Source: Chloroflexota bacterium (GTDB taxonomy: Bacteria; Chloroflexota; Limnocylindria; Limnocylindrales; CSP1-4). Taken from it: a DNA stretch of 36,771 bases. Shown here piece after piece: positions 8,691-31,078 of this stretch (its first letter is position 1; every line of letters begins with the position of its first letter). The notes under the pieces were generated by a model that made no database searches, was not told the origin of the DNA, and saw nothing but the letters and a program-made list of their open reading frames with translations. The stretch covers positions 1 to 36,771 of the forward strand of contig PLZO01000119.1 in the NCBI GenBank assembly GCA_003152165.1, in the 5' to 3' direction. The translations under genes and the position numbers were made by a program.

Positions 8691-8720
8691 GAGTACGATT
8701 CGTACACCAAGGCATACACG
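8691..8720. promoter_or_regulatory. Candidate operator between ubiX and the IPP isomerase gene
   Basis: The 66-base gap between the two divergent genes contains the palindrome GTACGATTCGTAC (8693-8705) overlapping CGTACACC (8701-8708), then GCATACAC (8712-8719). In the opposite direction the latter two read TGTATGCC and GGTGTACG. They match the half-sites seen upstream of other units in this island. No clean -35/-10 pair could be fixed. The position would allow one protein to control both genes. Confidence 0.45.
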
Positions 8721-8736
8721 AGCTCGGGCGGGGTCG

Positions 8737-9813
8737 ATGGACGAGATCGTAGGTCGCAAAGCCGATCACCTGCGCCTCGCCACGGTCGAGGCGGCCCTCG
8801 CTCGGCGGGGTACGGGCTTCGACGAGGTCACGTTCGTCCACAACGCGCTGCCGGAGGTCGACTTCGAGCGGTTGGATCCCTCCGTGGAGTTCCTCGGCAG
8901 GCGGTTATCCCTGCCGCTCGTGATCGCCTCGATGACAGGGGGCCACCCGGACGGCGGGCGCATCAACGCGGCGCTGGCTCGGGCGGCCGAGCGCCACGGA
9001 CTGGCGATGGGCGTGGGGAGCCAGCGCGCGGCGCTCCGCGAGCCCGCCCTCCGCGACACCTACGGGATCGCCCGGCAGGAGGCGCCGTCCGCCTTCCTCC
9101 TGGCCAATGTCGGGGCACCGCAGCTCGTCGCCCAGGGCGACGCCCCGCCGTTGTCCGTCGATGAGGTGAAGCGGCTCGCCGAGATGATCTCGGCAGATGC
9201 CGTCATCGTCCACCTCAACGCGCTCCAGGAGCTGATCCAGCCCGAGGGAGATCGCCGCGCCTTCGGCTGGCTCGCGGCGATCGAACGTCTCGTCGTCGCC
9301 CTACCGTTGCCGGTCGTCGCCAAGGAGACCGGCGGCGGCGTGTCCGAGCGGGTCGCTCGGCGGCTGGCGGACGCCGGCGTGGCGGCGATCGATGTCGGCG
9401 GCCTGGGCGGGACCAGTTTCGCGGCGATCGAAGGCCTGCGGGCCACTGAGCAGGGCGACCGGCGCGGAAGCGAGCTGGCGGAGCGATTTGCCGACTGGGG
9501 CATCCCGACCGCCGCCAGCGTGGGACTCGCTACGAGGGCGGGTATTCCGATCATCGCCACCGGCGGGATCCGCTCGGGTCTCGACGCGGGACGGGCGATC
9601 GCCCTCGGGGCGACCGCGGTCGGCGTCGCTCGGCCGCTGCTCCAGGCGGTCGTCGACGGGGGAGATGAGGCGGTCGACGGCTGGCTAGCGCGCTTCCGGG
9701 AGGAGCTGCTGGCCACGCAGTTCCTGACCGGCTCGCCCACGATCGGCGATCTGGCCCGGGCGGAGGTCGTCATCTCAGGTGAGACCGGGCACTGGCTCGG
9801 TTCCCGTGGCTGA
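8737..9813 (+). CDS. fni: Type 2 isopentenyl diphosphate isomerase (FMN/NAD(P)H dependent)
   Basis: The 358-residue enzyme interconverts isopentenyl and dimethylallyl diphosphate. Family motifs appear in order: RKADHLRLA at the start, IASMTGGHPDGGRIN, GVGSQRAAL, NVGAPQLV, HLNALQELIQPEGD, VVAKETGGGVS, DVGGLGGTSFAAIE, DWGIPTAAS, IATGGIRSGLDAGRAIALGA and TAVGVARPLLQ. The ATG at 8737 begins at the conserved N-terminus; the same frame is open from 8014 only because of GC bias over ubiX. Finding it back to back with ubiX suggests that here it may supply the dimethylallyl unit for prenyl-FMN rather than only for isoprenoids (inference). Confidence 0.93.
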   Translation: MDEIVGRKADHLRLATVEAALARRGTGFDEVTFVHNALPEVDFERLDPSVEFLGRRLSLPLVIASMTGGHPDGGRINAALARAAERHGLAMGVGSQRAALREPALRDTYGIARQEAPSAFLLANVGAPQLVAQGDAPPLSVDEVKRLAEMISADAVIVHLNALQELIQPEGDRRAFGWLAAIERLVVALPLPVVAKETGGGVSERVARRLADAGVAAIDVGGLGGTSFAAIEGLRATEQGDRRGSELAERFADWGIPTAASVGLATRAGIPIIATGGIRSGLDAGRAIALGATAVGVARPLLQAVVDGGDEAVDGWLARFREELLATQFLTGSPTIGDLARAEVVISGETGHWLGSRG

Positions 9814-9838
9814 TCCGTCCAAGACAGGAGAATCAGGC

Positions 9839-10817
9839 GTGCCAAAGGCGATCTATCTGACGCTGGCGTGCGGGCAGTACGACATCAACCAAGGCCTGAT
9901 CACCGGCGAGGTCGTGCCACAGGGGATCGAGTTGAGCGTCATCACGGCGCCGTCCCCGGAAGGGCACTGGCGCATGGTCCGCGACGCCGAGTTCGAAGTC
10001 TGCGAGTTTTCGATCGGGACCTACCTGATGGTCCACGAACGCGACCGCTCGGCGGTCGTAGCCATCCCAGCCTTCCCGCACCGCCGATTCCAGCACGGCT
10101 ACATCTTCGTCGCCACCGCCAGCGGTATCCGGCGAACCGAAACAGCTCGAGGAGCTCCGCATCGGCATCCGGACCTGGCAGACCTCGGCCTGGCTGTAGG
10201 CGTGCGGCTTCCTGCAAGACGATTACGGCGTCGATCTCCGGTCGAGCACATGGATCGCCCAGGACGAGGCGGACATCCCGCTTCCGGACAACCACGGCTA
10301 CCGGATCGAACGCGTCCTCGATGGACGCCCCATCACGGACATGCTGGCCGCCGGCGACATCGATGCCCTAATCTATCCCGACGTGCTCGACTCGGTCCGG
10401 CGTGGCGAACCGCGCGTCGCGCGCCTGTTTCCCGATCCGCGCAGCGCCGAAGCTCGACCACTGCGCCCGGACGGGCTTCTTCCTGATCATGCACACGGTC
10501 TTGATCCGGCGCTCCATCGCGGAGGCTCATCCGTGGATCCCCGAGAACTCCTTACGGCCTTCGAAACCTCCAAATGCCGGGCGTTCGCAGCCATGGCCGA
10601 TCCCCGCCGAGTGAGCCTCGCCTGGTTCACGGAGGCGATGGAGGAACAGTGTCGGATCCTCGGCCCCGATCCCTGGTCGAACGACTTCCAACTCAACCGA
10701 CCGGCCCTCGAGACGCTGATCTGCTGGTCCCACGAGCAGCGGATGATCAACCGCCCGTTCCCGGCAGAGGAGCTGTTCGCCGCCTCGACGCTGGTGGATC
10801 TGCCCCACTTCTTATGA
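9839..10817 (+). pseudogene. 4,5-dihydroxyphthalate decarboxylase-like protein, recently broken
   Basis: A GTG at 9839 with AGGAG 8 bases upstream starts a readable protein: LTLACGQYDINQGLITGEVV, then PQGIELSVI, EVCEFSIGTYLMVHERD, AIPAFPHRRFQHGYIFVATA. The frame then shifts near 10135; a TAG interrupts TSAWL.ACGFLQDDYG near 10197; the frame shifts again near 10450 (KLDHCARTGFFLIMHTVLIR) and near 10550, and the end reads LNRPALETLICWSHEQRMIN. The fold family includes 4,5-dihydroxyphthalate decarboxylase and related periplasmic-binding-like proteins. All segments are still well preserved, so the lesions look recent, or they could be assembly errors. It follows the IPP isomerase gene by 25 bases and was probably in the same operon. 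Confidence 0.82.
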
Positions 10818-10827
10818 CGGCGGCTTG

Positions 10828-11661
10828 TCAGGCGCGGGGAGCCAGGAAGGCGACGACCTCGGCGATGACAGGGTGCGGGGTCTGCCAGAACAAGCCGTGG
10901 GCCACGCCCTCCGCGATCCGCAGGTCGGCGTGGGGAAGGTGGTCCGCGAGGTAGCGCGACTGGTCCAGGTGCGACCCGGTCCCCCCGACATGGGTGTCGC
11001 GATCACCGACGATGACCAGGCACGGCTGGTCGATCTCAGCCAGCCGGTCGACAGTATGGTGGCCTTGGCGAGCGATGACGTGCTTGAGATAGTCGCGCAG
11101 CGACGGGCGGCCGTCCCAGAATGCCCCGATCAGCCGATCGATCGTCGCCGGCGAGCTCGCGGCGAACTCCGGGGTGAAGAACGTCGACCGGATCTGGTCG
11201 GTGATCGTCTGCTCGTAGCCCTTTTCGATCAGGGCGAGCGCGTTGGCCAGCGGGATCCCGGTTTGCGGTTCGCGGTCCGCCCGGTACTCGCCCGGCCCGG
11301 ACGCCGCCAGGACGAGCGATCGGACGCGATCGGGTGCGTCGATCGCGACCCATTGGGCGACACGGCCACCCATCGAGTGACCCAGGAGGTGGGTGGGGCC
11401 CAATCCCAGTTCGTCGATCAGCGCGGCGGCGTCTGCGGCAAAGAGGCGAGTCGAATAGTCGTCGTCGGTCCCGGGGGTCTCCCCGGTGCCACGGTAATCG
11501 AGCGTGACGACGGTGAACCGCTCCGCCAACCTCCCGACCAGGTCCTCTCCCCAGGTCGCACCAGCGTACCCGGTGCCAGCAAGCAGGACGAGCGGCGGAC
11601 CGGAACCGCGGACCTCATGAGCGAGCCTGATTGGTTCGACCGCCCGCACGGGGATGAACAA
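10828..11661 (-). CDS. Alpha/beta hydrolase
   Basis: The 277-residue protein has the complete alpha/beta-hydrolase set: an oxyanion region VLLAGTGYAG, LDYRGTGETPG, the nucleophile elbow LLGHSMGGRVAQ, the acid in VIVGDRDTHVG and the histidine in EGVAHGLFW. It could hydrolyse an ester, a CoA thioester, an enol-lactone or a C-C bond; similar enzymes such as 3-oxoadipate enol-lactonase occur in aromatic catabolism. I placed the start at the TTG at 11661, which has GGGAG 7 bases upstream; a GTG at 11649 is possible. The much longer open frame to 12774 is antisense to the next FAD subunit gene and is not real. Confidence 0.85.
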   Translation of the reverse strand: MFIPVRAVEPIRLAHEVRGSGPPLVLLAGTGYAGATWGEDLVGRLAERFTVVTLDYRGTGETPGTDDDYSTRLFAADAAALIDELGLGPTHLLGHSMGGRVAQWVAIDAPDRVRSLVLAASGPGEYRADREPQTGIPLANALALIEKGYEQTITDQIRSTFFTPEFAASSPATIDRLIGAFWDGRPSLRDYLKHVIARQGHHTVDRLAEIDQPCLVIVGDRDTHVGGTGSHLDQSRYLADHLPHADLRIAEGVAHGLFWQTPHPVIAEVVAFLAPRA

Positions 11662-11764
11662 TGCTTGCTCCCGCTGGCCCGCGCGCGCCGACGCGTGGTT
11701 CGCCCGCGCTGCGGGTCGTGAGTATACCGCTGCATCCCTTTCCGCCCTCGACCGGCCGGCGGGT

Positions 11765-11827
11765 GGCCGGTTTGACAGGCCGGTTTGACGGGGGTCCGCG
11801 AGGCTGCATAGAATGCACGTGTATACC
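11765..11827 (+). promoter_or_regulatory. Promoter of hydroxylase operon 2 with duplicated -35 and overlapping operator
   Basis: A 13-base tandem duplication (11765-11777 and 11778-11790) carries TTGACA at 11772 and TTGACG at 11785. The second lies 18 bases before TAGAAT (11809-11814), a good -10. TGCACGTGTATACC (11814-11827) follows at the expected start of transcription and resembles the paired half-sites at 18636-18651. It lies 51 bases before the ATG of the FAD subunit gene. The layout suits repression by a protein bound across the start site. Confidence 0.6.
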
Positions 11828-11877
11828 AACCGTCCAGGCGCCAGGCAGGTTCTTGTGCGCACCGACCGAGGTCGTTC

Positions 11878-12762
11878 ATGCGCGGATCCCTGGTGTTCTA
11901 TCACCCCACCACGCTGCAGGAGGCGATCGGCCTCCTCGGGGAGCATGGCGAGGAGGCGAAGGTCGTGGCCGGCTCGACCGCACTGACCATCCTCATGCGC
12001 CAGCGGCTCATCGCTCCATCGGTCCTCGTCAGCATCGGGGCGATCCCGGGGCTGGATGGGATCGAAGAGCGGGACGGGGCAATCCGGATTGGGGCGATGG
12101 TCCGCCACCGCGACGTGGAGCTGAGCGAGCTGGTCCGAGCCCGGGTCCCCGTCCTCGCCGAGACGTTCGGGGTGGTCGCCAACGTCCGCGTCCGCAATGC
12201 CGCCACCGTCGGCGGCGTGCTGGCCGAATCGGACTACGCCTCGGATCCGCCGGCCGTCTTCGTCGCCCTCGATGCGGAGATCGAGGTCCGGGGGCCGGGC
12301 GGGGAGCGGACGATCCCAGCCCGCGACTTCTTCGTCGCCTTCTACGAGACCGCCCTCGAACCGAACGAGATCGTGACCGCCATCCGGATACCGATCCCGG
12401 TCACCGGCAGCGGCACCGCCTATCACAAGTTCGTGTCGAGGTCGTCCGAGGATCGCCCGTGCGTCGGGGTCGCGGCCCTCGTCCACCTCGCCAGCGATGG
12501 CACCTGCGCGGACCTGCGGGTCGCGGTCGGTGCTGCGGCGGAGACCCCCCAGCGGTTCCCGAACGTGGAGGCGCTGGCGGTGGGCCAGACTTTGACCCCC
12601 GAGCTGACCGGTCGGATCGGCGATGCCTACGCCGACGCGATCGACACGCTCGACGACATGCGCGGATCCGCCTGGTACCGGACGGAGATGGTCCGGGTCT
12701 GGGTCGGCCGGGCGATCGAGACCGCCACCGACGCGGCGGCCGACCGGTCGGCCCCCGGTTGA
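11878..12762 (+). CDS. Molybdenum hydroxylase FAD subunit (CoxM/XdhB-like), operon 2
   Basis: The 294-residue protein is the paralogue of the gene at 3981, with the same landmarks: AKVVAGSTALTILMRQRL is preceded by GLLGEHGEE, then RNAATVGGVLAESDYASDPP, ARDFFVAFYETALEPNEIVT, YHKFVSRSSEDRPCVGV and the terminal RGSAWYRTEMVRVWVGRAI. It binds FAD and passes electrons out of the complex. GAGG lies 6 bases before the ATG. The large subunit starts 14 bases after its stop, a small gap where operon 1 has an overlap. Confidence 0.9.
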   Translation: MRGSLVFYHPTTLQEAIGLLGEHGEEAKVVAGSTALTILMRQRLIAPSVLVSIGAIPGLDGIEERDGAIRIGAMVRHRDVELSELVRARVPVLAETFGVVANVRVRNAATVGGVLAESDYASDPPAVFVALDAEIEVRGPGGERTIPARDFFVAFYETALEPNEIVTAIRIPIPVTGSGTAYHKFVSRSSEDRPCVGVAALVHLASDGTCADLRVAVGAAAETPQRFPNVEALAVGQTLTPELTGRIGDAYADAIDTLDDMRGSAWYRTEMVRVWVGRAIETATDAAADRSAPG

Positions 12763-12776
12763 GCCGAGGAGCACGA

Positions 12777-15089
12777 ATGATCGCCGAACCCCGTCACATC
12801 GTTCCGCCCGGGATGCTCGACGCGAACCTCCGAGTCCGTGGTCGGGTGCCGTACGCCATCGATGTCGTCCTCCCCGGGATGCTCCACGCCAAGCTGCTTC
12901 GAAGTCCCTACGCCCACGCCCGGATTGTCTCGGTCGACGCCACCCGGGCGCGTGCCCTGCCGGGTGTCCACGCGGTGCTCACCGGCCCGGATCTCGCCGC
13001 CCGCGACGACATCTTTCCGTACTTCGGCCCGATCTTCCGCGACCAGGCGGTTCTGGCCATCGACAAGGTGCGCTTCGTAGGCGACCCGGTCGCAGCGGTC
13101 GCGGCGATCGACATCGACGTCGCCCAGGCGGCCCTCGATCTGATCAACGTGGAGTACGACGAGTTGCCAGCGGTCTTCAACGTCGACGAAGCGCTCGAAC
13201 CCGGCGCGCCCATCGTCCACGACGAGCCGCGCCGGCTCGGCCAGACCTTCGCCGACATCATCGTCCGGGCCGAGGCGGACACGAACGTCTGCAATCACTT
13301 CAAGTTGCGCAAGGGCGACGTTGAGCGCGGCTTCGCCGAGGCGGATCACGTCTTCGAGGACGTCTTCACCTCGCCGCCCGTCCAGCACGTACCCATGGAG
13401 ACGCACAACTGCGTCGCCACGATCGAGGCCGGGATCATCCGGGTGACGACCGCGACCCAGATGCCGTTCGCGGTCCGCGCCTCGTTGGCCGAGATCTTCA
13501 AAGTCTCCCAGGCCAAGGTCCGGGTCACAACGCCGACGCTCGGCGGTGGCTACGGTGCCAAGACGTACACGAAGGTCGAGCCCGTCGCCGCCCTCCTCGC
13601 CCAGGCCACGGGCCGGCCGGTGAAGATCCACCTGACCCGCGAAGAAGAGTTCGTCACCATCACCAAGCACGGTGTCAAGATCCAGATGAAGACCGGCGTC
13701 ACCAAGGACGGCCGGATCGTCGCCCGGAAGAGCACCTGCCTGTTCAACACCGGCGCCTACGCGGACATCGGGCCCCGGCTCATCAAGAACGGCGGCTATG
13801 CGACCGGCGGCCCGCACTACATCCCGAACGTCTGGGTCGACTCGTACGCGGTGTACACGAACCTGCCCCCAGCCGGGGCGTTCCGCGGCTACGGCGTCTC
13901 GCAGGCTGCCTGGGCCTACGAGACCCAGATGGACATGATCGCGGCGAAGCTGGGTTGGGACGCGCTCGAGTTCCGGATGAAGAACCTCTTGGAGGATGGG
14001 CAGTCGGTGATGACCGGCGAGGATATGTTCGACGCCCACTTCAAGGAGCTCCTAACCACGGCGACGGCCCGGATCGGCTGGGACCCCGCGGAGGAACCGC
14101 GCCGGAACGGCTCGAAGGTCCGAGCCAAGGGCTTCGCGTGCATCATCAAGGGCACCGTCACGCCGTCGACGTCGACCGCCGCGGCGAAGCTCAATGAGGA
14201 CGGCAGCCTCCAGATCCTGTCGAGCGCGGTCGAGATGGGCCAGGGTGCGGAGACGGCCCTCAGCGTCCTGGCGGCCGAAGGGCTCGACCTCGAACTCGGC
14301 CAGGTCAGCATCTCGCGACCGGACACGGACGTGACGCCGTACGATCAGGGGACGAGCTCGAGCCGCAACACGCATTCGATGGGGACCGCGGTCGGCATGG
14401 CGGTGGCCGACATCCGGCGCCAGCTGCTCGCCCTAGCCGCCGAGCAGCTCGAGGTGGATCCGGCTGACCTGGAACTCGTCGCCGGTCGCGTCCAGGCCCG
14501 AGGGGCGCCGTCGACGTCGATCGCCTACGGCGATCTCGTCCGGGCGTCGCGCAGCGGCAACCTGCTGGCCAACAGCGTCTACGCGTCTAAAGGCGGGCTC
14601 GACCCGGAGACCGGTCAGGGCATCGGTTCGGTCCACTGGCATCAGGCGGCGGCGGCCGTCGAGGTCGAAGTCGACCTCGCGACCGGCAAGATCGATCTCC
14701 TCCGATATCACGCCGGCGTGTACGCCGGCCGGATCGTCAACCCCGTCCAGGCCGAGCTCCAGACGGAGGGCAACATCGCCTTCGGTCTCGGCCAGGCCTT
14801 GTTCGAGGAGATGGTCTTCGATGGCGGCCAGCTCCAGAACGGCAACCTCGGCGATTACATGATCGCCAGCATCGAGGACATGCCGCAGGAGATCAGCCTC
14901 GGGATCCTCGAGCATCTCGAGTCCAACGACATCCACGGCATCGGGGAGACCTCGCTGCCGCCGGCAATGCCGGCGATCGGCAACGCCGTGTTCCGGGCGA
15001 CCGGTGTCCGGATCACCGACTTGCCGATCACCCCCGAGAAGGTGCTGCGTGGCCTGCGAGCCCGTGCTGTCGAGGAGTCTGCCGAATGA
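12777..15089 (+). CDS. Molybdenum hydroxylase large subunit (CoxL/XdhA family), operon 2
   Basis: The 770-residue catalytic subunit is collinear with that of operon 1. Landmarks are GRVPYAIDVVLPGMLHAKLL, TLGGGYGAK (Gly to Ala relative to operon 1), KIHLTREEEFVTITKHGVKI, the pocket loop AGAFRGYGVSQAAWAYE, SAVEMGQGAETAL and the catalytic glutamate in HGIGETSLPP at about residue 724. There is no CO dehydrogenase-type cysteine loop. The start ATG at 12777 has GAGGAG upstream; the long open frame reaching back to 11661 overlaps the FAD gene and is spurious. Two such near-identical systems in one island suggest related substrates or successive hydroxylations of one ring. Confidence 0.92.
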   Translation: MIAEPRHIVPPGMLDANLRVRGRVPYAIDVVLPGMLHAKLLRSPYAHARIVSVDATRARALPGVHAVLTGPDLAARDDIFPYFGPIFRDQAVLAIDKVRFVGDPVAAVAAIDIDVAQAALDLINVEYDELPAVFNVDEALEPGAPIVHDEPRRLGQTFADIIVRAEADTNVCNHFKLRKGDVERGFAEADHVFEDVFTSPPVQHVPMETHNCVATIEAGIIRVTTATQMPFAVRASLAEIFKVSQAKVRVTTPTLGGGYGAKTYTKVEPVAALLAQATGRPVKIHLTREEEFVTITKHGVKIQMKTGVTKDGRIVARKSTCLFNTGAYADIGPRLIKNGGYATGGPHYIPNVWVDSYAVYTNLPPAGAFRGYGVSQAAWAYETQMDMIAAKLGWDALEFRMKNLLEDGQSVMTGEDMFDAHFKELLTTATARIGWDPAEEPRRNGSKVRAKGFACIIKGTVTPSTSTAAAKLNEDGSLQILSSAVEMGQGAETALSVLAAEGLDLELGQVSISRPDTDVTPYDQGTSSSRNTHSMGTAVGMAVADIRRQLLALAAEQLEVDPADLELVAGRVQARGAPSTSIAYGDLVRASRSGNLLANSVYASKGGLDPETGQGIGSVHWHQAAAAVEVEVDLATGKIDLLRYHAGVYAGRIVNPVQAELQTEGNIAFGLGQALFEEMVFDGGQLQNGNLGDYMIASIEDMPQEISLGILEHLESNDIHGIGETSLPPAMPAIGNAVFRATGVRITDLPITPEKVLRGLRARAVEESAE

Positions 15090-15616
15090 CTGCTACCGAT
15101 CCGTCCTCCCCGAGGACCAGCCCGCGACCCGTCGACGGCGAAGGGAAGATCTCTCTGACCCTGCGCGTGAATGGCAGCGCTGAGCGCGTCCGGGCCCGAC
15201 CAAACCACACCCTCCTTGAGGTCCTCCGCAACGAGCTCCATCTGACCGGGCCCCGCGAGGGCTGCGGCGTCGGGATGTGCGGCGCCTGCACGGTCCTCGT
15301 CGATGGCCGGCCCGTCTCCAGCTGCCTCCTGCCAGCGGCCTTGGCCGAGGACCACGAACTGACGACGATCGAGGGCCTTGAAGGACCGAACGGCGAGCTC
15401 CACCCGATCCAGGAGGCCTACGTCGAGCACACTGGGTTCCAGTGCTCGTACTGCACGCCCGGCTTCATCCTCGCGACCAAGGCACTCCTCGAGGAGTGCC
15501 CCGACGTGACCCGCGACGAGGCCAAGGCCTACCTCGCCGGCAACCTCTGCCGGTGCGGCAGCTATGTGAAGATCCTCGACTCGGTCATGGACGCCAGGGA
15601 TCGGGTTCGCGGCTGA
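15086..15616 (+). CDS. Molybdenum hydroxylase 2Fe-2S subunit (CoxS family), operon 2
   Basis: The 176-residue iron-sulfur subunit shows CGVGMCGACTVLVDG with a following SSC for the first cluster, and QCSYCTPG plus NLCRCGSYVKI for the second. About 22 extra polar residues precede the ferredoxin fold (residues 1-22, rich in Ser and Pro). Its ATG overlaps the stop of the large subunit. It shares the CSYC/CRCGSY wording with operon 1. The gene ends 25 bases before the convergent thiamine-diphosphate enzyme. Confidence 0.92.
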   Translation: MTATDPSSPRTSPRPVDGEGKISLTLRVNGSAERVRARPNHTLLEVLRNELHLTGPREGCGVGMCGACTVLVDGRPVSSCLLPAALAEDHELTTIEGLEGPNGELHPIQEAYVEHTGFQCSYCTPGFILATKALLEECPDVTRDEAKAYLAGNLCRCGSYVKILDSVMDARDRVRG

Positions 15617-15620
15617 ACCG

Positions 15621-15643
15621 GAGTGGCCGGCCGCGCCGGACTC
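15621..15643. terminator. Possible hairpin between convergent genes
   Basis: GAGTGGCCGG (15621-15630) can pair with CCGGACTC (15636-15643), leaving a two-base bulge and a five-base loop. It fills the short gap between two genes that point at each other, which is a usual place for a bidirectional terminator. No T-tract is seen on either side, so support is modest. Confidence 0.3.
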
Positions 15644-18605: not shown

Positions 18606-18623
18606 CCGACGCGGGTGACGCAA

Positions 18624-22563: not shown

Positions 22564-22588
22564 CCCTGGGTCTGTTCTCCCACGAGGT

Positions 22589-22663
22589 TGGTGACACCCG
22601 AGGAGCCCGTCACCAGCTAGGTTGAAGGCGCTGACCAATCAGCAGATCTGGGAGGGCTCCTCG
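22589..22663. repeat. Nested inverted repeats at the IS481 remnant leader
   Basis: TGGTGAC (22589-22595) pairs with GTCACCA (22609-22615). Inside it, CGAGGAGCCC (22599-22608) pairs with GGGCTCCTCG (22654-22663), which ends just before the transposase start. The two pairings exclude each other. They could be the terminal repeat and leader of the IS481 element, or a terminator for coxG; no T-tract is present. Confidence 0.45.
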
Positions 22664-22664
22664 A

Positions 22665-22880
22665 ATGCATTGTCACGCCAACGCCCGTCTGACACCACGC
22701 GGCCGGGCCGGAGTCTTCGCGGCCGTCGAGGCCGGGATGACCGTGGCCGCCGCCTGTCTCGCCTTCCGGATGAGCCGCTGCTACTACCGCTGGCTGCCGC
22801 GCTTCCGGAGGAACGGCCCGGCCGGCCTCATTGACCGGAGCTCACGACCGCATCTTCGATGCGGAGGAGGAGCGGGGTTG
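22665..22880 (+). pseudogene. IS481-family transposase, N-terminal remnant
   Basis: From the ATG at 22665 the reading is MHCHANARLTPRGRAGVFAA, then AACLAFRMSRCYYRWLPRFR and GPAGLIDRSSRPH. This is the helix-turn-helix start of IS481 transposases. Homology ends at about residue 65, and the open frame then runs antisense into the amidohydrolase gene. The catalytic DDE domain is missing. Confidence 0.82.
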
Positions 22881-22892
22881 ACGTGCCAACCG

Positions 22893-24278
22893 CTACTTCG
22901 CAGCCGTGGCACCCTGGACGACCGGACGGACCATCCGGCCGGTCGGCTTGCCGACGAGCTCGCCGTCGCGCATGACGATCCGACCGCGGACGATCGTGGC
23001 GACTGGCATGCCCTTGGTCTTGCGGCCGTCGAACGGCGTGACGTGGTTCTTGCTGTGGAGCTCGTCATCGCGGATGACGCCTTCCTTGTCGAGATCGATG
23101 ATCGTCAGGTCGCCGTCCGAGCCGATGGCGATTGTGCCCTTCTGGGGGTAGATATCCCAGGTCTTGGCAGGGCCCTCGGAGGTGGCTCGGACGAGCTGCT
23201 GGAGCGTCATCCGACCGGTGTGGACGCCGTTGGTGAGGAAGAACCGGACGCTCGTCTCGACGCCGGGGAAACCGGAGATCGCCTTCCAGATGTCGTCGTT
23301 GAGCTTCTCCTCCGCGGTGTGCGGCGAATGGTCCGTGGCGATCTGGTTGACCCGGCCGTCGTTCAGTCCTTTGAGCAGGTAGTCGCCGTGGCCCTCGCTC
23401 CCGTAGCGGACAGGAGGGTTCATCCGGAGACGCGGGCCCAAGGTGGCCATCTCCTCGGCCGTGAGGAAGACGTAGTGGGCGCCGGTCTCGCACGTGACGT
23501 CGACGCCCTTGGCGCGCCATTCGTCGATCATGTCGAGGCCTTCCTTGGACGACAAATGGAAGATGTGGATCTTCGTCCCGATGTGCTTCGCGTAGAGGCC
23601 CATCCGCTGGATGGACTCGACCTCAGCGAGCGCGGGGCGCGAGTCGACGTGCGCGAGCGCGTCGGTCCGGCCAGCCGCCTTCATCTGCCGGATCAGGTGC
23701 TGCATGATCTCGTTGTTTTCGGCGTGGAAGCCGATCCGTAGCCCGGTCTCGGCGATCTCGCGGAGACCGTCGAGCATCATGCCGTCATCGGGCGCCGGGA
23801 TATTGCCGATCGTCTCGCCGAGGAAACACTTGAAGCCGACGACACCGGCCTCGGCCAGTGACTTGAGGGCAGGTACGCTGTCCTGGACCAGCAGGCCGAT
23901 GATCCCAAAGTCGACAAACGACTTCTCCTCGGCGAGCTTCTTCTTGAGCTCGACGCCAGCAACCGTGTCGGTCTTGGGGTTCGTGTTCGGCATGTCGATG
24001 ACCGTCGTCACGCCGCCCATGACGGCGGCCGTCGACCCAGTCGTCCAGTCCTCCTTGTATTCGAAGCCGGGCTCGCGGAAGTGGACGTGGCCGTCGATGA
24101 CGCCGGGCACGACGTACTTGCCGGAGGCGTCGTACTCCTCCTTCGCGGTCAGGCCGAGCTCGCCCGGAGCCGCGATCGAGACGAACTTGCCACCGTCCAC
24201 GGCGAGGTCCGCCTGGAACGTGGCGTCCGCGGTGACGACGGTTCCGTTCTTGACGATCAGATCGACGGGATTTGCCAT
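22893..24278 (-). CDS. Cyclic amidohydrolase (allantoinase/dihydropyrimidinase/dihydroorotase family)
   Basis: The 461-residue metal-dependent hydrolase opens cyclic amides. It shows the metal-binding HxH in VIDGHVHFREPGFEYKEDW, the bridging lysine candidate in VVGFKCFLGETIG, histidines in IGFHAENNEIM and IHIFHLSSKEGLD, and the aspartate in QIATDHSPHTAEEK. The start ATG at 24278 begins the typical NPVDLIVKNGTVVTAD; longer frames upstream overlap the UbiD gene. It lies 85 bases downstream of ubiD in the same direction and is probably co-transcribed. No allantoicase is near, so ring opening of another cyclic amide or hydantoin is as likely as purine breakdown. Confidence 0.87.
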   Translation of the reverse strand: MANPVDLIVKNGTVVTADATFQADLAVDGGKFVSIAAPGELGLTAKEEYDASGKYVVPGVIDGHVHFREPGFEYKEDWTTGSTAAVMGGVTTVIDMPNTNPKTDTVAGVELKKKLAEEKSFVDFGIIGLLVQDSVPALKSLAEAGVVGFKCFLGETIGNIPAPDDGMMLDGLREIAETGLRIGFHAENNEIMQHLIRQMKAAGRTDALAHVDSRPALAEVESIQRMGLYAKHIGTKIHIFHLSSKEGLDMIDEWRAKGVDVTCETGAHYVFLTAEEMATLGPRLRMNPPVRYGSEGHGDYLLKGLNDGRVNQIATDHSPHTAEEKLNDDIWKAISGFPGVETSVRFFLTNGVHTGRMTLQQLVRATSEGPAKTWDIYPQKGTIAIGSDGDLTIIDLDKEGVIRDDELHSKNHVTPFDGRKTKGMPVATIVRGRIVMRDGELVGKPTGRMVRPVVQGATAAK

Positions 24279-24363
24279 TGGTTGTCCAGTTCTCCTGCTG
24301 ATTGGCTTTGCGTGACGAACGTTGAGTGGGGACTTGGCTGGGTCGTTGCGTCCGCCGGTCGGG

Positions 24364-25860
24364 CTACGGGCCAGCAGGGCCTCGGGCGTCTGGATCAAGG
24401 ATCCAGCCCCAGCGGTCCTTCGTCGCCCGCGACATCTCGGTGGTGACGACCGGCTCGGCAAAACGGTCCTTCCATTCCCACGGCTTCGTCGCATCGATCA
24501 GGAGGCGCGAATTGAAGCCGCGCTCGTCGGGATGGATGGCCGGGTCGAGCGGCCCGCTCCAGGCTCGCTTGATGATCGTGATGTCGCGGTCCGGGTCGCA
24601 GCGGGTCATTACCGCCCACATGACGTCGTCGAGGCTGGTAATGTCGATGTCAGGGTCGACGACGATCGCGATCCGACCCGCGTAGGCCGACGTCCCGGTC
24701 TGGCTGCCGACCATGAGCGCCTGGGTGGCGTGACCGGCATAAGCTTGGTCGACGGCAATGACCGTCATCATCCGGTTGCCGGCCTCGGGCGGACACCACA
24801 CGCCGGTCACACGCGGCACGCCGGCCTGGCGGAGCTGCGTCTCGATGAGCGCCGACTTCAGGTATGCGAGGAAGCGGTTGTCCTCGTGCGGCGGCTTGCC
24901 CTGCGGGCAGCCGAGCAGGATCGGATCATTGCGGTGGTATATGGCGGCGACGTGGATGACCGGGGTCTGGTGCTCGCCGCTCGCGTAATAGCCCATCCAT
25001 TCACCGTACGGACCCTCGTGGTGGGTCTCGTCCGGGTACATCCAGCCCTCGATGACGATCTCGGCGGTCGCCGGGAAGGGGAGCCCGGTGTGTTTGCCCC
25101 GCACGACGTCGATCGCCTCGTCGCGGATACCCCCGGCCCACGCCATCTCGCTCATGCCGTAGGGGATGCCTTCGGCGCATGCCGACATGAAGAGCAGGGG
25201 ATCGGCGCCGACGACGACGACGATCGGACACGGCTGGCCACGGTCGAAGTACTTCTGGCGGATCAGCTTGCCGTGCTTGCCCGGGCTGATGTACACGCCC
25301 AGCTCGTTACGGCTGAAGACCTGGTTGCGGTACGTGCCCAGGTTGACCCAGTCGGAGTCGGGATCCTTCAGGATGTTCATGCTGGCGGTCCCGATGAACC
25401 GGCCGCCGTCCTGCGGGTGCCACGTCGGCACCGGGAAGGCCTCGAGGTCGACGTCGTCGCCCTCGAGGATGTTCTCGAAGACGGGGCCCGTCTCGACCTC
25501 GCGCGGGGGGATCGGAGTCAGGCCGTCGAGGACGCCGCGCCAGAATCGGAACAGGCCATCGTGGTTGCCCTCTGACGGGGGAAGGTTGAGGGTGATCGCC
25601 TGGCGGGCGGTATTGCCGCTGCAATTGACGATGACGCGACGGCCTGCCGGGTATCCGGGGATTTCGTCGAACAGGACGGCCGGTGAATCTTCGTTGTGGT
25701 CGAGCATCTCGGTGATCTCACCGATCTCGGACTGCCAGCCGGCACCACGGACGACCCGCAGCTCACCTTGCTCCTCGGCACGGGCGATCCATTCGCGGGT
25801 GTCGCGCCACGGGGCCAGACGGCCCGTCGCGGTGCCAGTCGGCTGATCGCTGATCGCCAC
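24364..25860 (-). CDS. UbiD family prenyl-FMN-dependent decarboxylase
   Basis: The 498-residue enzyme removes (or adds) a carboxyl group on an aromatic, heteroaromatic or unsaturated acid using prenyl-FMN. The conserved Arg-Glu-Glu triad can be located in LGTYRNQVFSR, EIVIEGWMYP and EGPYGEWMGYYASGEHQTPV. Other family marks are PQDGGRFIGT and SMNILKDPDSDWVN. I chose the GTG at 25860 because GAGGAAGAGGA lies just upstream; an ATG at 25896 would add a basic stretch that overlaps that ribosome site. UbiX (8020-8670) would provide its cofactor. The substrate is unknown; phenolic, furan, pyrrole or pyridine acids are all possible. Confidence 0.92.
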   Translation of the reverse strand: MAISDQPTGTATGRLAPWRDTREWIARAEEQGELRVVRGAGWQSEIGEITEMLDHNEDSPAVLFDEIPGYPAGRRVIVNCSGNTARQAITLNLPPSEGNHDGLFRFWRGVLDGLTPIPPREVETGPVFENILEGDDVDLEAFPVPTWHPQDGGRFIGTASMNILKDPDSDWVNLGTYRNQVFSRNELGVYISPGKHGKLIRQKYFDRGQPCPIVVVVGADPLLFMSACAEGIPYGMSEMAWAGGIRDEAIDVVRGKHTGLPFPATAEIVIEGWMYPDETHHEGPYGEWMGYYASGEHQTPVIHVAAIYHRNDPILLGCPQGKPPHEDNRFLAYLKSALIETQLRQAGVPRVTGVWCPPEAGNRMMTVIAVDQAYAGHATQALMVGSQTGTSAYAGRIAIVVDPDIDITSLDDVMWAVMTRCDPDRDITIIKRAWSGPLDPAIHPDERGFNSRLLIDATKPWEWKDRFAEPVVTTEMSRATKDRWGWILDPDARGPAGP

Positions 25861-25916
25861 GCTTGTCCTCTTCCTCGACCGTCGTCCGGCACCCATGATC
25901 GGAGCGGCGCGAATGT

Positions 25917-25930
25917 CACTGTATGCAGTG
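25917..25930. promoter_or_regulatory. Palindromic operator upstream of ubiD
   Basis: CACTGTATGCAGTG has perfect five-base arms (CACTG/CAGTG) and contains TGTATGCA, the clearest version of the motif found through the island. It lies 57 bases upstream of the chosen ubiD start. A TACAGT on the minus strand within it could be a -10, but no good -35 is found. Confidence 0.5.
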
Positions 25931-26013
25931 GTATCTTATCGGCCGCAGGGCGTCTGGGTCAATGCCGAGTCGACGCTCGCCAGTGCCACGTCGATCGCCC
26001 TCGGCGGAGTTCG

Positions 26014-26290
26014 ATGGACCTCAGCCCGGTTGTCCTGCTCGTCCTGGTCGCCTCCATGTTCGGGCCGCCTTCGTCAATGGGACGATCGGTTTCGGTTTCG
26101 CGCTCCTCGCCGTCAAAGTTCCTGGCCGTGATCCTGGGTACCAGGGAGGAGATCATCGTCCTGACCCTCCTGACGCCGGCGGTGCAGCGGCCTCCAAGTG
26201 GGGCACCACCGGGCCGACCGGGGGACTGCCAAGCGGCTCCGTGTGCTCATCGTGGCGGCCCTCGTCGGGACAGCCATCGTTGGGATGTTC
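26014..26290 (+). pseudogene. TauE/SafE family permease remnant
   Basis: Reading across three frames gives VVLLVLVAS, AAFVNGTIGFGFALLAVK, ILGTREEIIVLTLLTPAV, and GTAKRLRVLIVAALVGTAIV. This is the N-terminal half of a TauE/SafE (sulfite exporter-like) membrane protein with the FVNGTIGFG motif. At least three frameshifts and an abrupt end at about 26290 make it non-functional. Confidence 0.7.
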
Positions 26291-26700
26291 TCGATCCGGA
26301 CCTGGAGCCGGCCGAAGTCAGCCTCGACCTCGACCTCGTGGGTGTTCTGCCTGATGGACGGGTCGGCGATGACCCGGACCTCCGTCCGGTCGAAGCCGAT
26401 CCCGGTGATGCTCACGGCGACGACGGCGTTGATATTGGCCGGGAAGAGCTTCCTTGCCGCCCGTGCCGGCCGGCATACACCGCGCGCGGCTCGCCGGAGC
26501 GGATGACCTCGGCCGCATCGTCGTGATCGAGCAGGGTGTGGGGCGGCTTCCGGACAGAATGGACGACCCGATCCAGGTCGCCGACGGCGGCCGCGGAGAT
26601 CGCGTCGAGCGCCCCAGACGGTATCCCCAGGCGGCTTGCGCCCGCGGATACCGCTCGTTGGACCTCGGCCAACAGCTCCGCGTCGGCCGTTGTCGACTCC
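26285..26700 (-). pseudogene. L-aspartate dehydrogenase (NadX, DUF108) remnant
   Basis: The minus strand reads AELLAEVQRAVSAGASRLGI, PSGALDAISAAAVGDLDRVV, VIRSGEPRAVYAG and, after a frameshift near 26470, RKLFPANINAVVAVSITGIG, FDRTEVRVIADPSIRQNTHE and VEVEADFGRLQVRIENIP. This is the C-terminal catalytic part of NadX-type aspartate dehydrogenase. The NAD-binding half is missing. It ends against the TauE/SafE remnant. A minus-strand segment further upstream (26700-26778, starting MAEPVSDPYLPVQDK) is not recognised. Confidence 0.75.
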
Positions 26701-26844
26701 CGTGCGCGGGGCCGGATTGAGGTCGGTGTACGCTTTGTCCTGCACCGGCAGATACGGATCCGAGACCGGCTCCGCCATCGTCGCTGCCTCCTCGAATCGT
26801 CATCCGTCGTCGCCGAGGCCGCCGCGAGGTCTTCGCTGCACCGT

Positions 26845-26901
26845 TTGCCGCCCGGGGGATCCTGGCGCTAGGATAGTGTGCGAGTGTAGGCGCTCGCACA
26901 C
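26845..26901 (+). promoter_or_regulatory. Promoter and nine-base inverted repeat before the lyase gene
   Basis: TTGCCG (26845-26850) and TAGGAT (26869-26874) are 18 bases apart. GTGTGCGAG (26876-26884) and CTCGCACAC (26893-26901) follow as perfect arms around an eight-base centre that contains TGTAGG. The ribosome site CGGAG (26901-26905) begins at the last base of the right arm. An operator at the start site, or an mRNA hairpin limiting translation, would both fit. The half-site differs from TGTAYGCA, so it may answer to another regulator. Confidence 0.55.
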
Positions 26902-26910
26902 GGAGTTTTG

Positions 26911-27819
26911 ATGGCGCGACTTACCGCGGGACCCGCCGATGGCAGCCCCGGCGCGACCCCGGGCCGGCGCCTGCGCGTGCTGCTCGACCGGCCGGAACCG
27001 TTGGTCCTGCCCGGCTGCAGCGATGCCCTGACCGCGCGCCTCGCCGTCGCGGCCGGCTTCGAGGCCGTCTATGCGACGGGAGCTGGGATCGCCAATACCC
27101 TGCTCGGCGTGCCCGATGTCGGGCTGACGACCATGACCGAGCTCGTAGACCAGGTCGCCCGGATCGCCGCCGCGGTCAATGTCCCGATCGTGGCTGACCT
27201 CGATACGGGGTTCGGCAACGCCATCAACGCCCGCCGTGCGGTCACCGAATTCGAGCGGGCCGGTGTCGCCGGGATCCAGATCGAGGATCAGGTATTCCCG
27301 AAGCGCTGCGGCCACTTCGGCGGCAAGGAGATCATTCCGCTGGCGGAGATGCTGGCCAAGCTCCAGGCCGTGCTGGAGGCGCGCCGCGATCCGGCCCTCG
27401 TCGTGATCGCCCGCACGGACGCGCTCGCCACCGATGGCTTCGACGCTGCGATCGAGCGCGGTCGGGCCTTCGCCGAGGCCGGTGCCGACATCGTCTTCAT
27501 CGAGGCGCCGGTCCTCCTCGACGAGCTGAAGGCCCTGCCCGGCCGCGTTCCGGCGCCGCTCCTCGCGAACATGGTCGAGGGCGGCCGAACGCCCTTGCTC
27601 GGAGCAGACGAGCTCGGTGCCATGGGCTACCGGATCGTCCTCTTCGCGAATACAGCCATGCGCGTGGGTGCGCGCGCGATGCGCGACGCCCTGACCGAGC
27701 TTCGGGCGACCGGCGATAGCCGGCCGTTGCAGGATCGGATGCTGAACTGGGAGGACCGGCAGGCGCTCGTCGGTCTGCCAGAGATCGAAGCCCTCGAAGC
27801 GCGCTATCGAGTCGACTGA
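26911..27819 (+). CDS. Isocitrate lyase/PEP mutase family C-C lyase (2,3-dimethylmalate or methylisocitrate lyase type)
   Basis: The 302-residue enzyme has the superfamily motifs: VLPGCSDALTARLAVAAGFE, VYATGAG, IVADLDTGFGNAINARRAV, GVAGIQIEDQVFPKRCGHFG with the catalytic KRCGH loop, then VIARTDALA and ANMVEGGRTPLL. The intact KRCGH cysteine argues for a lyase that splits a malate-type acid, as in methylisocitrate lyase or 2,3-dimethylmalate lyase, rather than for a PEP mutase or hydrolase without it. GGAG lies 5 bases before the ATG. The PrpF-type isomerase follows after 46 bases in the same direction, so the two probably act in sequence. Confidence 0.85.
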   Translation: MARLTAGPADGSPGATPGRRLRVLLDRPEPLVLPGCSDALTARLAVAAGFEAVYATGAGIANTLLGVPDVGLTTMTELVDQVARIAAAVNVPIVADLDTGFGNAINARRAVTEFERAGVAGIQIEDQVFPKRCGHFGGKEIIPLAEMLAKLQAVLEARRDPALVVIARTDALATDGFDAAIERGRAFAEAGADIVFIEAPVLLDELKALPGRVPAPLLANMVEGGRTPLLGADELGAMGYRIVLFANTAMRVGARAMRDALTELRATGDSRPLQDRMLNWEDRQALVGLPEIEALEARYRVD

Positions 27820-27865
27820 AGCGGACCGACGAGCGTTGCGCTTGTGGCCGGTCGGAGGTGTGAAC

Positions 27866-29038
27866 GTGTTAAGTGATTCGGTCCCGGTGCGCTGCTCCAT
27901 CCTGCGCGGTGGGACGAGCAAAGCCGTCTTCTTCCTCGCCAACGATCTGCCGCCGGACCGCCCCTCGATGGAGCCGCTCCTGCTGAGCGTCTTCGGCAGC
28001 CCGGACATCCGGCAGATCGACGGCCTCGGCGGAGCGACCTCGCAGACGAGCAAGGCGGCGATCATCGGCGCCCCAAGTCACTCCGGCGCCGATGTCGACT
28101 ACACGTTCGCCCAGGTGAGCGTCGGCGAGCAGCTGGTTGACTGGGGCGGCAACTGCGGCAACATCTCGGCCGCCGTCGGGCCGTTCGCCATCGACCAGGG
28201 CTTCGTCCGGGCCGCCGAGCCGGTCACGACCGTCCGCGTCCACAACACCAACACCGGCAAGATCATCCTCGAGCACGTGCCCGTGCGCGGCGGCCGCGCC
28301 GCCTCGGAGGGCGATTACGCGGTCCCCGGTGTGCCCGGGACAAGCGCCCGCATCCTGCTCGAGTTCAGCGATCCGGCCGGGTCGCTCACCGGCAAGCTGC
28401 TGCCGACGGACCGGCCGTGCGACGAAGTCAAGCTCGACGACGGGCGGACCTTCCAGGTCTCGATCGTCGACGCGGCAAACCCGGTCGTCTTCGTCGCCGC
28501 GGAGGCCCTCGGCTTCAGTGGGACTGAGTTGCCGCTCGACATCGAGGCCGCCACCGCGGCGACCGACACCCTGGAGGCGATCCGCGGCGTCGTCGCGGAG
28601 TGGCTGGGGCTCGTGCCGGACCGGCACGACGCGACGAAGGTGACACCGGGCCTGCCGAAGGTCGGGTTCGTGGCTCGCCCGATGGCCTACCGGACCACCG
28701 CCGGCGTCGACGTTCCGGAGAGCTCGGTCGACCTCACTGGCAGGCTCATGTCGATGCAGACTGCCCATCGCTCCTACATGGTGACCGGCGCGATCGCGAC
28801 CGCGGCCGCGGCCTTCATCGACGGCACGATCGTCAACGCCCTAGTCCGACCGATCGGCCAGCGACCGATCGCCGAGAGCATCCGGATCGGCCATCCCTAC
28901 GGCGTGATGGAGGCCGTCATCAACGGCGATGGACCCGCGGCCGCTCCGGTCATCCGGGGTGTCGCCATCGGTCGGACGGCTCGCCACATCCTCGACGGCC
29001 AAGTCTGGGTCCCGCGCGGGTTGTTGCCGGCCGGCTGA
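27866..29038 (+). CDS. PrpF family isomerase (methylitaconate isomerase/4-oxalomesaconate tautomerase type)
   Basis: The 390-residue protein shares the diaminopimelate-epimerase-like fold of PrpF. Visible are CSILRGGTSKAVFFLANDLP, the QIDGLGGATSQTSKAAII segment, VDWGGNCGNISAAVGPFAI with the reactive cysteine, and near the end IRIGHPYGVMEAV. Known members move a double bond or tautomerise: AcnD partner PrpF, methylitaconate isomerase Mii, and 4-oxalomesaconate tautomerase GalD. The start is the GTG at 27866 with GGAGG 7 bases upstream. Pairing with a KRCGH lyase mirrors Mii and dimethylmalate lyase in nicotinate fermentation, but no dimethylmaleate hydratase is seen here. Confidence 0.85.
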   Translation: MLSDSVPVRCSILRGGTSKAVFFLANDLPPDRPSMEPLLLSVFGSPDIRQIDGLGGATSQTSKAAIIGAPSHSGADVDYTFAQVSVGEQLVDWGGNCGNISAAVGPFAIDQGFVRAAEPVTTVRVHNTNTGKIILEHVPVRGGRAASEGDYAVPGVPGTSARILLEFSDPAGSLTGKLLPTDRPCDEVKLDDGRTFQVSIVDAANPVVFVAAEALGFSGTELPLDIEAATAATDTLEAIRGVVAEWLGLVPDRHDATKVTPGLPKVGFVARPMAYRTTAGVDVPESSVDLTGRLMSMQTAHRSYMVTGAIATAAAAFIDGTIVNALVRPIGQRPIAESIRIGHPYGVMEAVINGDGPAAAPVIRGVAIGRTARHILDGQVWVPRGLLPAG

Positions 29039-29059
29039 GCCCGCCGAGCTCGTCGCGGG

Positions 29060-30079
29060 TCAGTAGGTGTCGAACATCCGCTGGATCTCCGTCACATCAC
29101 TCGTCTTCGTCAGACCGAGGGCAAGCAGGATGCGAGCCTTCCACGGCTGAAGGTTGTCGGCGGCCGACCAGCCCTTGCGCCGGAGCCCGGGACTGGTGAC
29201 GGTCCGGCCAGATCCCACCCGAGTGCCCTGGACGACGACCACGCCGGCCGCCGCCGCCCGGTCGAGGGCCGCGTCCTCCGCCGGGGTCGGGCGACCCGCG
29301 CCGGTCCCGGCGCTAACGATCCCGCGCGTGCCCGCGGCGACCGCAGCGTCGATCATCACGCCGTCCGCGCCGAGGTAGGAGACGACGACATCTACCCTGG
29401 GGAGGGCGTCGATATCGGTCAGATCGAATTCCGTCTCGGTCGTGTGCGTCCGCAGCGGCCGGTGATAGAAGAGGACGCGACCGTCGTTGTCGGCATACCC
29501 GAGCGGTCCCAGATCGCGGCCCTGGAAGGTCTCGACGCGGTAGGTCGCGGTCTTCGTCACGTCACGTGCGGAGAGGATGGTGTCGTTGAGGACGATCAGG
29601 ACACCCATCCCGCGCGACGCTTCGGTGGCCGCCACCCGGACGCCGCTGAGCAGGTTCAGATAGCCGTCGGCCGAGATCGCCGATGACGGTCGCATCGCGC
29701 CGACGATGACGACCGGCCGATCGCGCTTGAGGGTCAGGTGGAGGAAGTAGGCGGTCTCCTCGAGCGTGTTCGTGCCGTGGGTGATGACCACCCCATCGGC
29801 CCGGTCCTCGTCGAAGATCTGGTGGATGAGTGCGACCAGGTCGAACAGGTCCTGGTTCTTGATCGACTGGCTGGGGAGCCGCCGGAACGGGATCTCCTCG
29901 ACGTCCGCGATCGAGGCCAATTCCGGGACGCGGGCGACGAGCTCGCCGTCCTCAAGACGCTTGTTGGCCTCGATGTAGAAGGCCAGGTCGAGCCGGTCGA
30001 CACCGACCGAATCGATCGTCCCGCCAGTGAAGATCAGGGCAACCCGCGGACGCTGCTCGATGTGACTCACTCCCGACAT
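29060..30079 (-). CDS. Asparaginase/glutaminase family protein (L-asparaginase type II-like)
   Basis: The 339-residue protein has both threonine active-site signatures: VALIFTGGTIDSVG near residue 15 and GVVITHGTNTLEETAYFLHL near residue 100, followed by VIVGAMRPSSAISADGYLNL. These fit homologues that hydrolyse asparagine or a related amide. There is no signal peptide, so it is cytoplasmic. GAGG precedes the ATG by about 6 bases. It lies downstream of gntR in the same direction (118-base gap). In this setting it may hydrolyse a catabolic amide intermediate rather than asparagine (inference). Confidence 0.87.
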   Translation of the reverse strand: MSGVSHIEQRPRVALIFTGGTIDSVGVDRLDLAFYIEANKRLEDGELVARVPELASIADVEEIPFRRLPSQSIKNQDLFDLVALIHQIFDEDRADGVVITHGTNTLEETAYFLHLTLKRDRPVVIVGAMRPSSAISADGYLNLLSGVRVAATEASRGMGVLIVLNDTILSARDVTKTATYRVETFQGRDLGPLGYADNDGRVLFYHRPLRTHTTETEFDLTDIDALPRVDVVVSYLGADGVMIDAAVAAGTRGIVSAGTGAGRPTPAEDAALDRAAAAGVVVVQGTRVGSGRTVTSPGLRRKGWSAADNLQPWKARILLALGLTKTSDVTEIQRMFDTY

Positions 30080-30197
30080 AGCTCACCTCGGATCAGCGCG
30101 AAAACACACTTGTGGACACTGCTCTCCCGTGCGCTCGGACGGGTCCATCCGAGATGCGGGGAGGCGAAGCCAGAGGTCTGGATCGGGGATCGCCCGA

Positions 30198-30884
30198 TCA
30201 CGCGAGCTGCTTCTCGAATTCCTGGAGCTGCAGTCGGACGAGGTACTCGCGAGCCGCCGTGAGGTGGGAGCGCGACGCGGTCTCCGCGTCCTCCGGGTCG
30301 TGGGCCTCGAGGGCCGCGACGATGGCCCGGTGCTCGGCAAGGACGTGGTCGACGCGCTCGGGACTGGCGAACGGCAACGTCGTGAAGCGGCGAATGAACT
30401 CGCGCAGGTTGCGCCCTAGTTGTTCGAGCATCGGATTGCCCGCAGCGGCGTAGATCACGTCGTGGAAATGGGTGTTCGCCACGATGACCTGCTCGCGCCG
30501 ACCGTTGGCGATCGCCTCCTCCATCGATTCGACGACGACGCGCAGCCGGCCGAGCTCGGACGGCGTGATCCGATGGGCTGCCAGGCGGGCGGCCAGCCCA
30601 TCGAGCGCCTCGCGAACGATGAACACATTTTCGATCTCGCGAGCGTCCGGAGCATGGACGACCGTGCCCCGTGCCGGGTCGGCGAAAACGAGGTTCTCGA
30701 CAGCGAGGCGCTTGAGCGCCTCTCGCACCGGGGTACGGCTGACGCTGAACTCGGCCGCGATCGACAACTCGACGAGCCTCATGTCCGGCGCCAACGCTCC
30801 GGAGATGATCTGCTCCTTGAGCGATTGATAGACAAACTCGCTTCTCTGCAAGCCGTCTTTACGGGTCACATGGTTTGTACGCAT
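30198..30884 (-). CDS. GntR family regulator with FCD ligand domain
   Basis: The 228-residue regulator has an N-terminal winged helix (FVYQSLKEQIISGALAPDMR, then LSIAAEFSVSRTPVREALKR, about residues 17-70) and a C-terminal all-helical FCD domain. In the latter, FIVREALDGLAARLAA, NTHFHDVIYAAAGNPMLEQL and VDHVLAEHRAIVAALEAHD hold the metal/ligand residues. FCD regulators usually repress catabolic genes until an organic acid binds. The start codon overlaps a TGTACGCA site, and similar sites lie upstream of most operons in this island, so it probably controls itself and them (inference). Confidence 0.9.
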   Translation of the reverse strand: MRTNHVTRKDGLQRSEFVYQSLKEQIISGALAPDMRLVELSIAAEFSVSRTPVREALKRLAVENLVFADPARGTVVHAPDAREIENVFIVREALDGLAARLAAHRITPSELGRLRVVVESMEEAIANGRREQVIVANTHFHDVIYAAAGNPMLEQLGRNLREFIRRFTTLPFASPERVDHVLAEHRAIVAALEAHDPEDAETASRSHLTAAREYLVRLQLQEFEKQLA

Positions 30885-31078
30885 CGCCTATCCATTAGCA
30901 GGACCTGCTGGCGTTACGGCATATCCCCGTATGCAACTGATCCCCCGCAGTATAGGCGACTTTCCCCAGACGAACACCCGCTTTCCCGTCGTCCCTGCGG
31001 GCCTGGCGAGGAGCCGTGCGTGCTTGGCGTCGCCCGACGGTGGGCTATATCCGCCTGGGATTCGCTTGCATACTGTTG
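30876..31078. promoter_or_regulatory. Intergenic control region of gntR and the hydratase-family gene
   Basis: Three sites of the shared motif lie in this divergent region: TGTACGCA across the gntR start (30876-30883), CGTATGCAACTG (30928-30939), and CTTGCATACTG (31065-31075), the last 36 bases before the hydratase-family ATG. The second and third contain GTATGCAA in opposite orientations. Clear -35 boxes were not found. The layout suits autoregulation of gntR and control of the neighbouring gene. Confidence 0.5.

Follow-up and report, generated by a model that had tools for sequence, protein, structure and literature searches.

Does a single regulator govern the catabolic island found in a Chloroflexota bacterium (GCA_003152165.1, contig PLZO01000119.1, positions 1-36,771), and are the TGTAYGCA-like boxes recurring in its promoter gaps the operators of that regulator? 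The whole stretch of 36,771 nt, hereafter the window, represents about 1% of a 3.6-Mb genome (G000) with 68% GC, in which gaps are less GC-rich than genes. It encodes an FCD-type GntR regulator together with UbiX, isopentenyl-diphosphate (IPP) isomerase, UbiD, molybdenum hydroxylases and a thiamine-diphosphate (TPP) enzyme. The initial annotation had proposed one regulon under this GntR, and we found that both the enrichment of the box in gaps and its conservation at orthologous promoters support that core claim. We put the probability at roughly 0.8 that the island forms one local regulon, in which the GntR would repress its own gene and the island units by blocking their promoters. The box is very probably the binding place of the island's own GntR-type repressor, and six or seven transcription units carrying it at or just after the promoter are likely to be switched together.

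Density of the box in gaps and in genes

All nine sites listed by the initial annotation were read where it had placed them. The window contains TGTAYGCA 4 times where 0.42 would be expected, a number reached in 0 of 100 shuffles, and GTATGCA 5 times against 1.0 expected, again with none of 100 shuffles giving as many. When all 8-mers were counted unprompted, with 1 mismatch allowed, in 10 island gaps (1,777 bp) and 120 shuffle sets, the top word was TGTATGCA/TGCATACA, present in 7 of the 10 gaps versus 0.54 expected. The whole genome holds 7 occurrences of TGTATGCA, 2 of them inside the window; the other exact words (contigs C55, C74, C100 and C102) lie in or near unrelated genes and added no regulon members. 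The strict 16-base form TGTACGNNTGCATACA, with up to 3 mismatches, gave 55 matches genome-wide versus 54 in the reversed control, so that only its exact match at 18636, the single one in the genome, is informative.

Matrix searches were made in both directions. A matrix trained only on the relatives' sites was applied to the window and to a genomic background of 242 kb, sampled as 20 stretches of the host genome. Strong boxes (score >=10.4) numbered 7 in the 4.6 kb of window gaps versus 0.2-0.3 expected from the sample, which is a more than 10-fold enrichment (Poisson 7e-8; Fisher p = 4e-6), whereas the sampled gaps held 4 in 54 kb and the window genes a single one. The GCATAC words inside genes, which the initial annotation had set against its own proposal, do exist, and in-gene boxes occur at about background density (at score 7, 0.37 per kb in window genes versus 0.34 per kb in sampled genes). 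In the reverse test, a matrix trained on the window sites alone was applied to the relatives' loci (11.5 kb of gaps and 71.8 kb of genes, one overlapping open reading frame in locus L082 being unmasked by hand) and returned 12 gap versus 5 gene matches (Fisher 1.6e-7), and 7 versus 0 at score 11; all gap matches except one stand at orthologous promoters. In both directions the motif is scarcer in genes than in island gaps and, because the two site sets are homologous, these tests show maintenance rather than independent origin.

Box positions at orthologous promoters

Three of the 107 family genomes searched possess a closely orthologous GntR, namely the window genome and two from other genera, G006 (85% identity) and G034 (77%), both of which carry large parts of the island. 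These clusters keep the motif at the same promoter positions. The box keeps its position behind the -10 in 3 of 3 genomes at ubiD, gntR and coxM2, in 2 of 2 at ubiX/idi (a unit not found in G034), and in 2 of 3 at coxS3/TPP and at coxG. In G006 (2.7 Mb), 3 of the 4 TGTATGCA words are orthologous operators.

In the three-genome alignment upstream of ubiD, the long invariant blocks are TTGACC, TAAGATAC and TGCATACA, with diverged flanks, and TGCATACA stands at an equal distance from the -10 in all three. Upstream of gntR, TATACT and TTGCATRCGG..AT.TGCCG are invariant in 3 of 3 genomes, and the box lies 49-52 bp before the GntR match in all three orthologues. Of the sites that had been assigned to gntR, this upstream one (30928) stands, being conserved; the word spanning the start (30876-30883) was rejected as an operator and is probably not a site, since it reads ATG-CGT-ACA, which are the opening codons of gntR, and the relatives carry ATGCGCACA and ATGCGGACC in its place. 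At coxM2, which starts at 11878 and thus places the site at 11814-11827 upstream of it, a TAGNAT box and TGTATAC are kept in three genomes with the -35 at 18 bp; the TAGAAT noticed before this site is read as the -10 of the coxM2 promoter, an arrangement kept in G006 and G034.

The sites said to lie on -10 boxes do overlap TACATT (TPP) and TACAAT (18648, coxS3). G006 contains two copies of the coxS3 unit (contigs C187 and C246; loci L059 and L082) with near-identical operators, TGTACGCCTGCATACA and TGTACGTCTGCATACA, matching TGTACGTGTGCATACA of the window, and it has TAGTGTATGCAGGCGTACA before the TPP gene (L059); the TPP box is lost in G034. Three molybdenum hydroxylases had been included, and two of them (the units at 11878 and 18741) have a site, while none precedes coxM1 (3915). 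UbiX and IPP isomerase keep their place through a site conserved in G006; however, ubiX is on the minus strand and diverges from idi, so that 8701-8719 is read as one operator in a divergent promoter gap. The frame before 8738 is non-coding and ubiX lies on the opposite strand, so that 8014-9813 does not encode a fusion of UbiX with the isomerase. Such small repairs to the gene map make the case stronger. CoxG, whose box appears in G006 as TACACTGCCGTATGCA, should be added as a member, and so, probably, should the ubiD-amidohydrolase and gntR-asparaginase pairs. The former pair and its gene order are retained in G006 and G034, and the asparaginase-family gene possibly belongs to the gntR operon.

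The boxes overlap the -10 (coxS3 and TPP) or start after it, by 3 bp at coxG, 5 bp at ubiD and coxM2, and 13 bp at gntR, so that a protein bound there would block RNA polymerase. A scan of 19.4 kb (8600-18760 and 21900-31150) returned only three sigma-70-like promoters, all at sites. The features are collected in Table 1.

Table 1. Genes of the island with predicted promoters and operators, in window coordinates.
Feature	Position	Strand	Remarks
UbiX flavin prenyltransferase	8020-8658	-	Flavoprotein 3.3e-40; NCBIfam UbiX above cut-off
Predicted operator, divergent ubiX/idi gap	8701-8719	.	CGTACACCAAGGCATACAC after GTACGATTCGTAC; G006 has TGTACGATTCGTACACCACGGCATACAC (L059)
Type 2 isopentenyl-diphosphate isomerase (idi)	8738-9813	+	TIGR02151 above cut-off, 7.6e-113
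coxM2 promoter	11785-11814	+	TTGACG, 18 bp, TAGAAT; same layout in G006 and G034
Predicted coxM2 operator	11805-11827	+	TGCATAGA + TGTATACC; second box 5 bp past -10
Molybdenum hydroxylase 2 (coxM2, coxL2, coxS2)	11878-15616	+	coxM2 is the flavin adenine dinucleotide (FAD) subunit
TPP enzyme	15642-17396	-	
Predicted TPP operator	17424-17441	-	CGCATACATTTGCGTACA; overlaps TACATT (17427-17432)
Predicted coxS3 operator	18636-18651	+	TGTACGTGTGCATACA; overlaps -10 TACAAT (18648-18653)
Molybdenum hydroxylase 3 (coxS3, coxL3)	18741-21535	+	
Predicted coxG operator	22074-22081	+	CGTATGCA; 3 bp past TAGACT
CoxG-family protein	22108-22563	+	COXG 6.2e-21
Cyclic amidohydrolase, allantoinase/dihydroorotase-type	22893-24278	-	Downstream of ubiD, same strand
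UbiD decarboxylase	24364-25896	-	UbiD 4.5e-66; unit 22893-25896
Predicted ubiD operator	25917-25930	-	CACTGCATACAGTG; follows -10; TGCATACA invariant in 3 genomes
ubiD promoter	25933-25962	-	TTGACC, 18 bp, TAAGAT; both hexamers invariant in 3 genomes
Asparaginase-family protein	29060-30079	-	Downstream of gntR; 92.6% identical in G006
FCD-type GntR regulator, proposed repressor	30198-30884	-	Pfam GntR and FCD domains
Predicted gntR autoregulatory operator	30915-30937	-	TTGCATACGGGGATATGCCG; 13 bp past TATACT; kept in 3 genomes
Weak site before ECH-family gene	31067-31074	+	TGCATACT; score 8.5; unconfirmed

The regulator and its rivals

The GntR protein combines a winged helix-turn-helix domain (PF00392, E 2.2e-20, residues 15-76) with an all-helical FCD effector domain (PF07729, E 3.6e-31, residues 88-209). 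It reaches no curated cut-off among the NCBIfam equivalogs (PhnR of the Burkholderia type, PdhR, LldR, NanR, CsiR and others), its best match being TIGR03338, for which it scores 121.4 bits and the cut-off is 271.5. A second family search gave no further orthologues, and a contig scan for close relatives returned remote matches only (34% and 27%). Distant orthologues share 47-48% identity; one of them, 47% identical, was found in G309, from another family of the same phylum, after a UbiD-coxM-coxL-coxS-UbiD-amidohydrolase operon, with TGCATACA about 51 bp upstream of gntR as in the three orthologues. About 25 kb from this gene, TGTATGCA precedes a LigB-type ring-opening dioxygenase gene (L108:11722, G309:C82:31722), which is a possible further regulon member in G309.

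Several points weigh against a single regulon under the island GntR. G034 retains the regulator yet has lost the coxG and TPP boxes, and the spacing of second boxes is irregular. Upstream sites were looked for and not found at coxM1 and at the PEP-mutase/PrpF pair. The hydratase-family (ECH) gene, which the initial annotation had included, is probably without a supported site: the word at 31066 is real, and lies upstream rather than in a gene given that ECH starts at about 31100 (as 18636-18651 does with coxS3 starting at 18741), but the ECH orthologues of G006 and G034 are located elsewhere in those genomes and have no box before them. GGCATACA at 26472, inside an AspDH-family gene, does not fit the regulon. 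Conservation also rests on few lineages, given that only three close clusters were found in the 107 genomes. Finally, the case from the window alone is good, not overwhelming, because 1 of the 120 shuffle sets gave an equally extreme best word, a moderate significance.

This last count, and the presence of the cores in genes, would suit a chance recurrence picked out by eye, a reading that we consider practically negligible: the footprints in three genomes already refute it, and independent matrix tests in both directions speak against it as well. It is also conceivable that the words are AT-rich promoter sequence, of the extended -10 or start-region kind, kept for RNA polymerase in a genome of 68% GC; some boxes do overlap -10 hexamers (TACAAT at 18648, TACATT at 17427-17432), and gaps are lower in GC than genes. 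Yet ubiD, coxM2, coxG and gntR have the box downstream of a distinct -10 that is itself conserved. The gaps of the 242-kb sample hold 4 strong boxes in 54 kb against 7 in the 4.6 kb of window gaps and do not show the box at many unrelated promoters, and the palindrome-like form fits the known regulator type, all of which makes this explanation very unlikely.

A somewhat less remote alternative, which we still judge improbable, accepts the operators as real but has them bound by one or several other FCD-type GntR proteins encoded in the genome. The host genome encodes at least 3 further GntR homologues, and a similar box stands upstream of 12 among 30 diverged homologues in the clade (p<=0.05; 1.5 expected), so that the word is a habit of the family, not unique to the island GntR; a 40% homologue in G193, for instance, has TGTATACA repeats upstream. 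On the other hand, the box precedes the gene of the linked GntR itself in all three orthologous islands and in the distant G309. Within the family set, the island with its sites occurs only in genomes that have this GntR, and the rest of these genomes contains very few exact boxes. Repression by the island's own GntR remains our preferred reading.

Some neighbouring observations concern the history and the reach of the island. Reverse transcriptase (1-1392), an IS481-type fragment (22665-22860) and an integrase core (rve) domain (36089-36769) lie at or near the ends and inside the island, signs of mobility that agree with an occurrence in 3 of 107 genomes. Elsewhere in the host genome, contig C24 (L036:9800-13072) contains a frame-broken second GntR copy, in pieces 52-70% identical, with TGCATGCGGCG upstream and TGCATACA just after, and the locus continues with a TPP enzyme in split parts and a UbiD relative of 31% identity, as a decayed sister island. 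In G034, TTGACC, 17 bp, TACAAT and TGCATACA on the -10 precede a binding-protein-dependent transporter permease gene (G034:C6:225, L105), possibly the transporter of the regulon in that genome. The window has at 9815-10817 an apparently frame-broken gene of substrate-binding-protein type, the G034 copy of which is intact (L060:6482-7459). An 88%-identical ECH relative at a contig end of G006 (C246:3474-3896, L071) has one in-frame TAG.

Proposed wiring and comparison with known systems

In the mechanism that we propose, the GntR would bind TGYATRCA-like boxes, probably as a dimer, often accompanied at 8-12 bp by a weaker second box or half-site (TGTACG), and the bound protein would block RNA polymerase and presumably repress its own gene. 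The repressed units would comprise ubiX/idi, for the supply of prenylated flavin mononucleotide (prenyl-FMN), UbiD with the amidohydrolase, two molybdenum hydroxylases, CoxG and the TPP enzyme. Release of the GntR would follow from a carboxylate pathway intermediate, probably derived from an aromatic or N-heterocyclic compound. The gene content suggests that the island degrades such a compound, because UbiD and the enzymes supplying its prenyl-FMN are found together with molybdenum hydroxylases, a cyclic amidohydrolase and members of the asparaginase, PrpF and PEP-mutase families.

A broader statement, that one FCD-type GntR repressor coordinates prenyl-FMN supply (UbiX and IPP isomerase), UbiD and two molybdenum hydroxylases, that the island moved from genus to genus together with its operators, and that the wiring recurs in a distant family, seems to us slightly more likely than not. 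Enzymes of unassigned substrate in an uncultured lineage would thus form a single functional unit of transcription, and the ligand that lifts the repression is probably either the substrate or a compound formed early in the pathway. Joint control of UbiX, IPP isomerase and UbiD, as proposed here, suggests that the prenyl-FMN cofactor is made on demand, and the operator word offers a means of finding more members and sister islands. In the literature searched, which was only part of what exists, this wiring was not found, and nothing relevant turned up on the box word with GntR.

The regulator type itself is already known. Atu1419 of Agrobacterium fabrum, an FCD/VanR-type regulator of hydroxycinnamic acid degradation, contacts DNA through Glu34, Arg45, Thr46 and Arg49, and its operator, the short palindrome ATGTATACAT, overlaps -10 boxes (PMC7797058). 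The island GntR aligns with it (6z74) without gaps over the helix-turn-helix and keeps these contact residues as E39, R50, T51 and R54; Atu1419 governs catabolic units as well as its own gene, as is proposed here for the island GntR. The two differ in that the phmmer E-value is only about 5e-17, the genes controlled are others, and the box here is mostly TGTATGCA/TGCATACA, not TGTATACA. The regulons of the FadR subfamily in RegPrecise (GT-N2/3-AC; PMC4494728) resemble the island in being local, around the regulator gene, with operators in divergent gaps and added boxes or half-sites 7-12 nt from the centre; their motifs are TKGT/ACMA-type palindromes, including ones of 2-nt spacing, and ligands of FCD proteins are usually small carboxylates (PMC4494728). 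The TGYATRCA boxes of the island are palindrome-like, not strict, one side often having GC for AC (TGTATGCA), with an exact TGTATAC at coxM2. In its lineage and its targets (UbiX, IPP isomerase, UbiD and molybdenum hydroxylases) the island differs from the regulons described in the papers searched, above all in the proposed wiring that joins prenyl-FMN supply to UbiD and to molybdenum hydroxylases.

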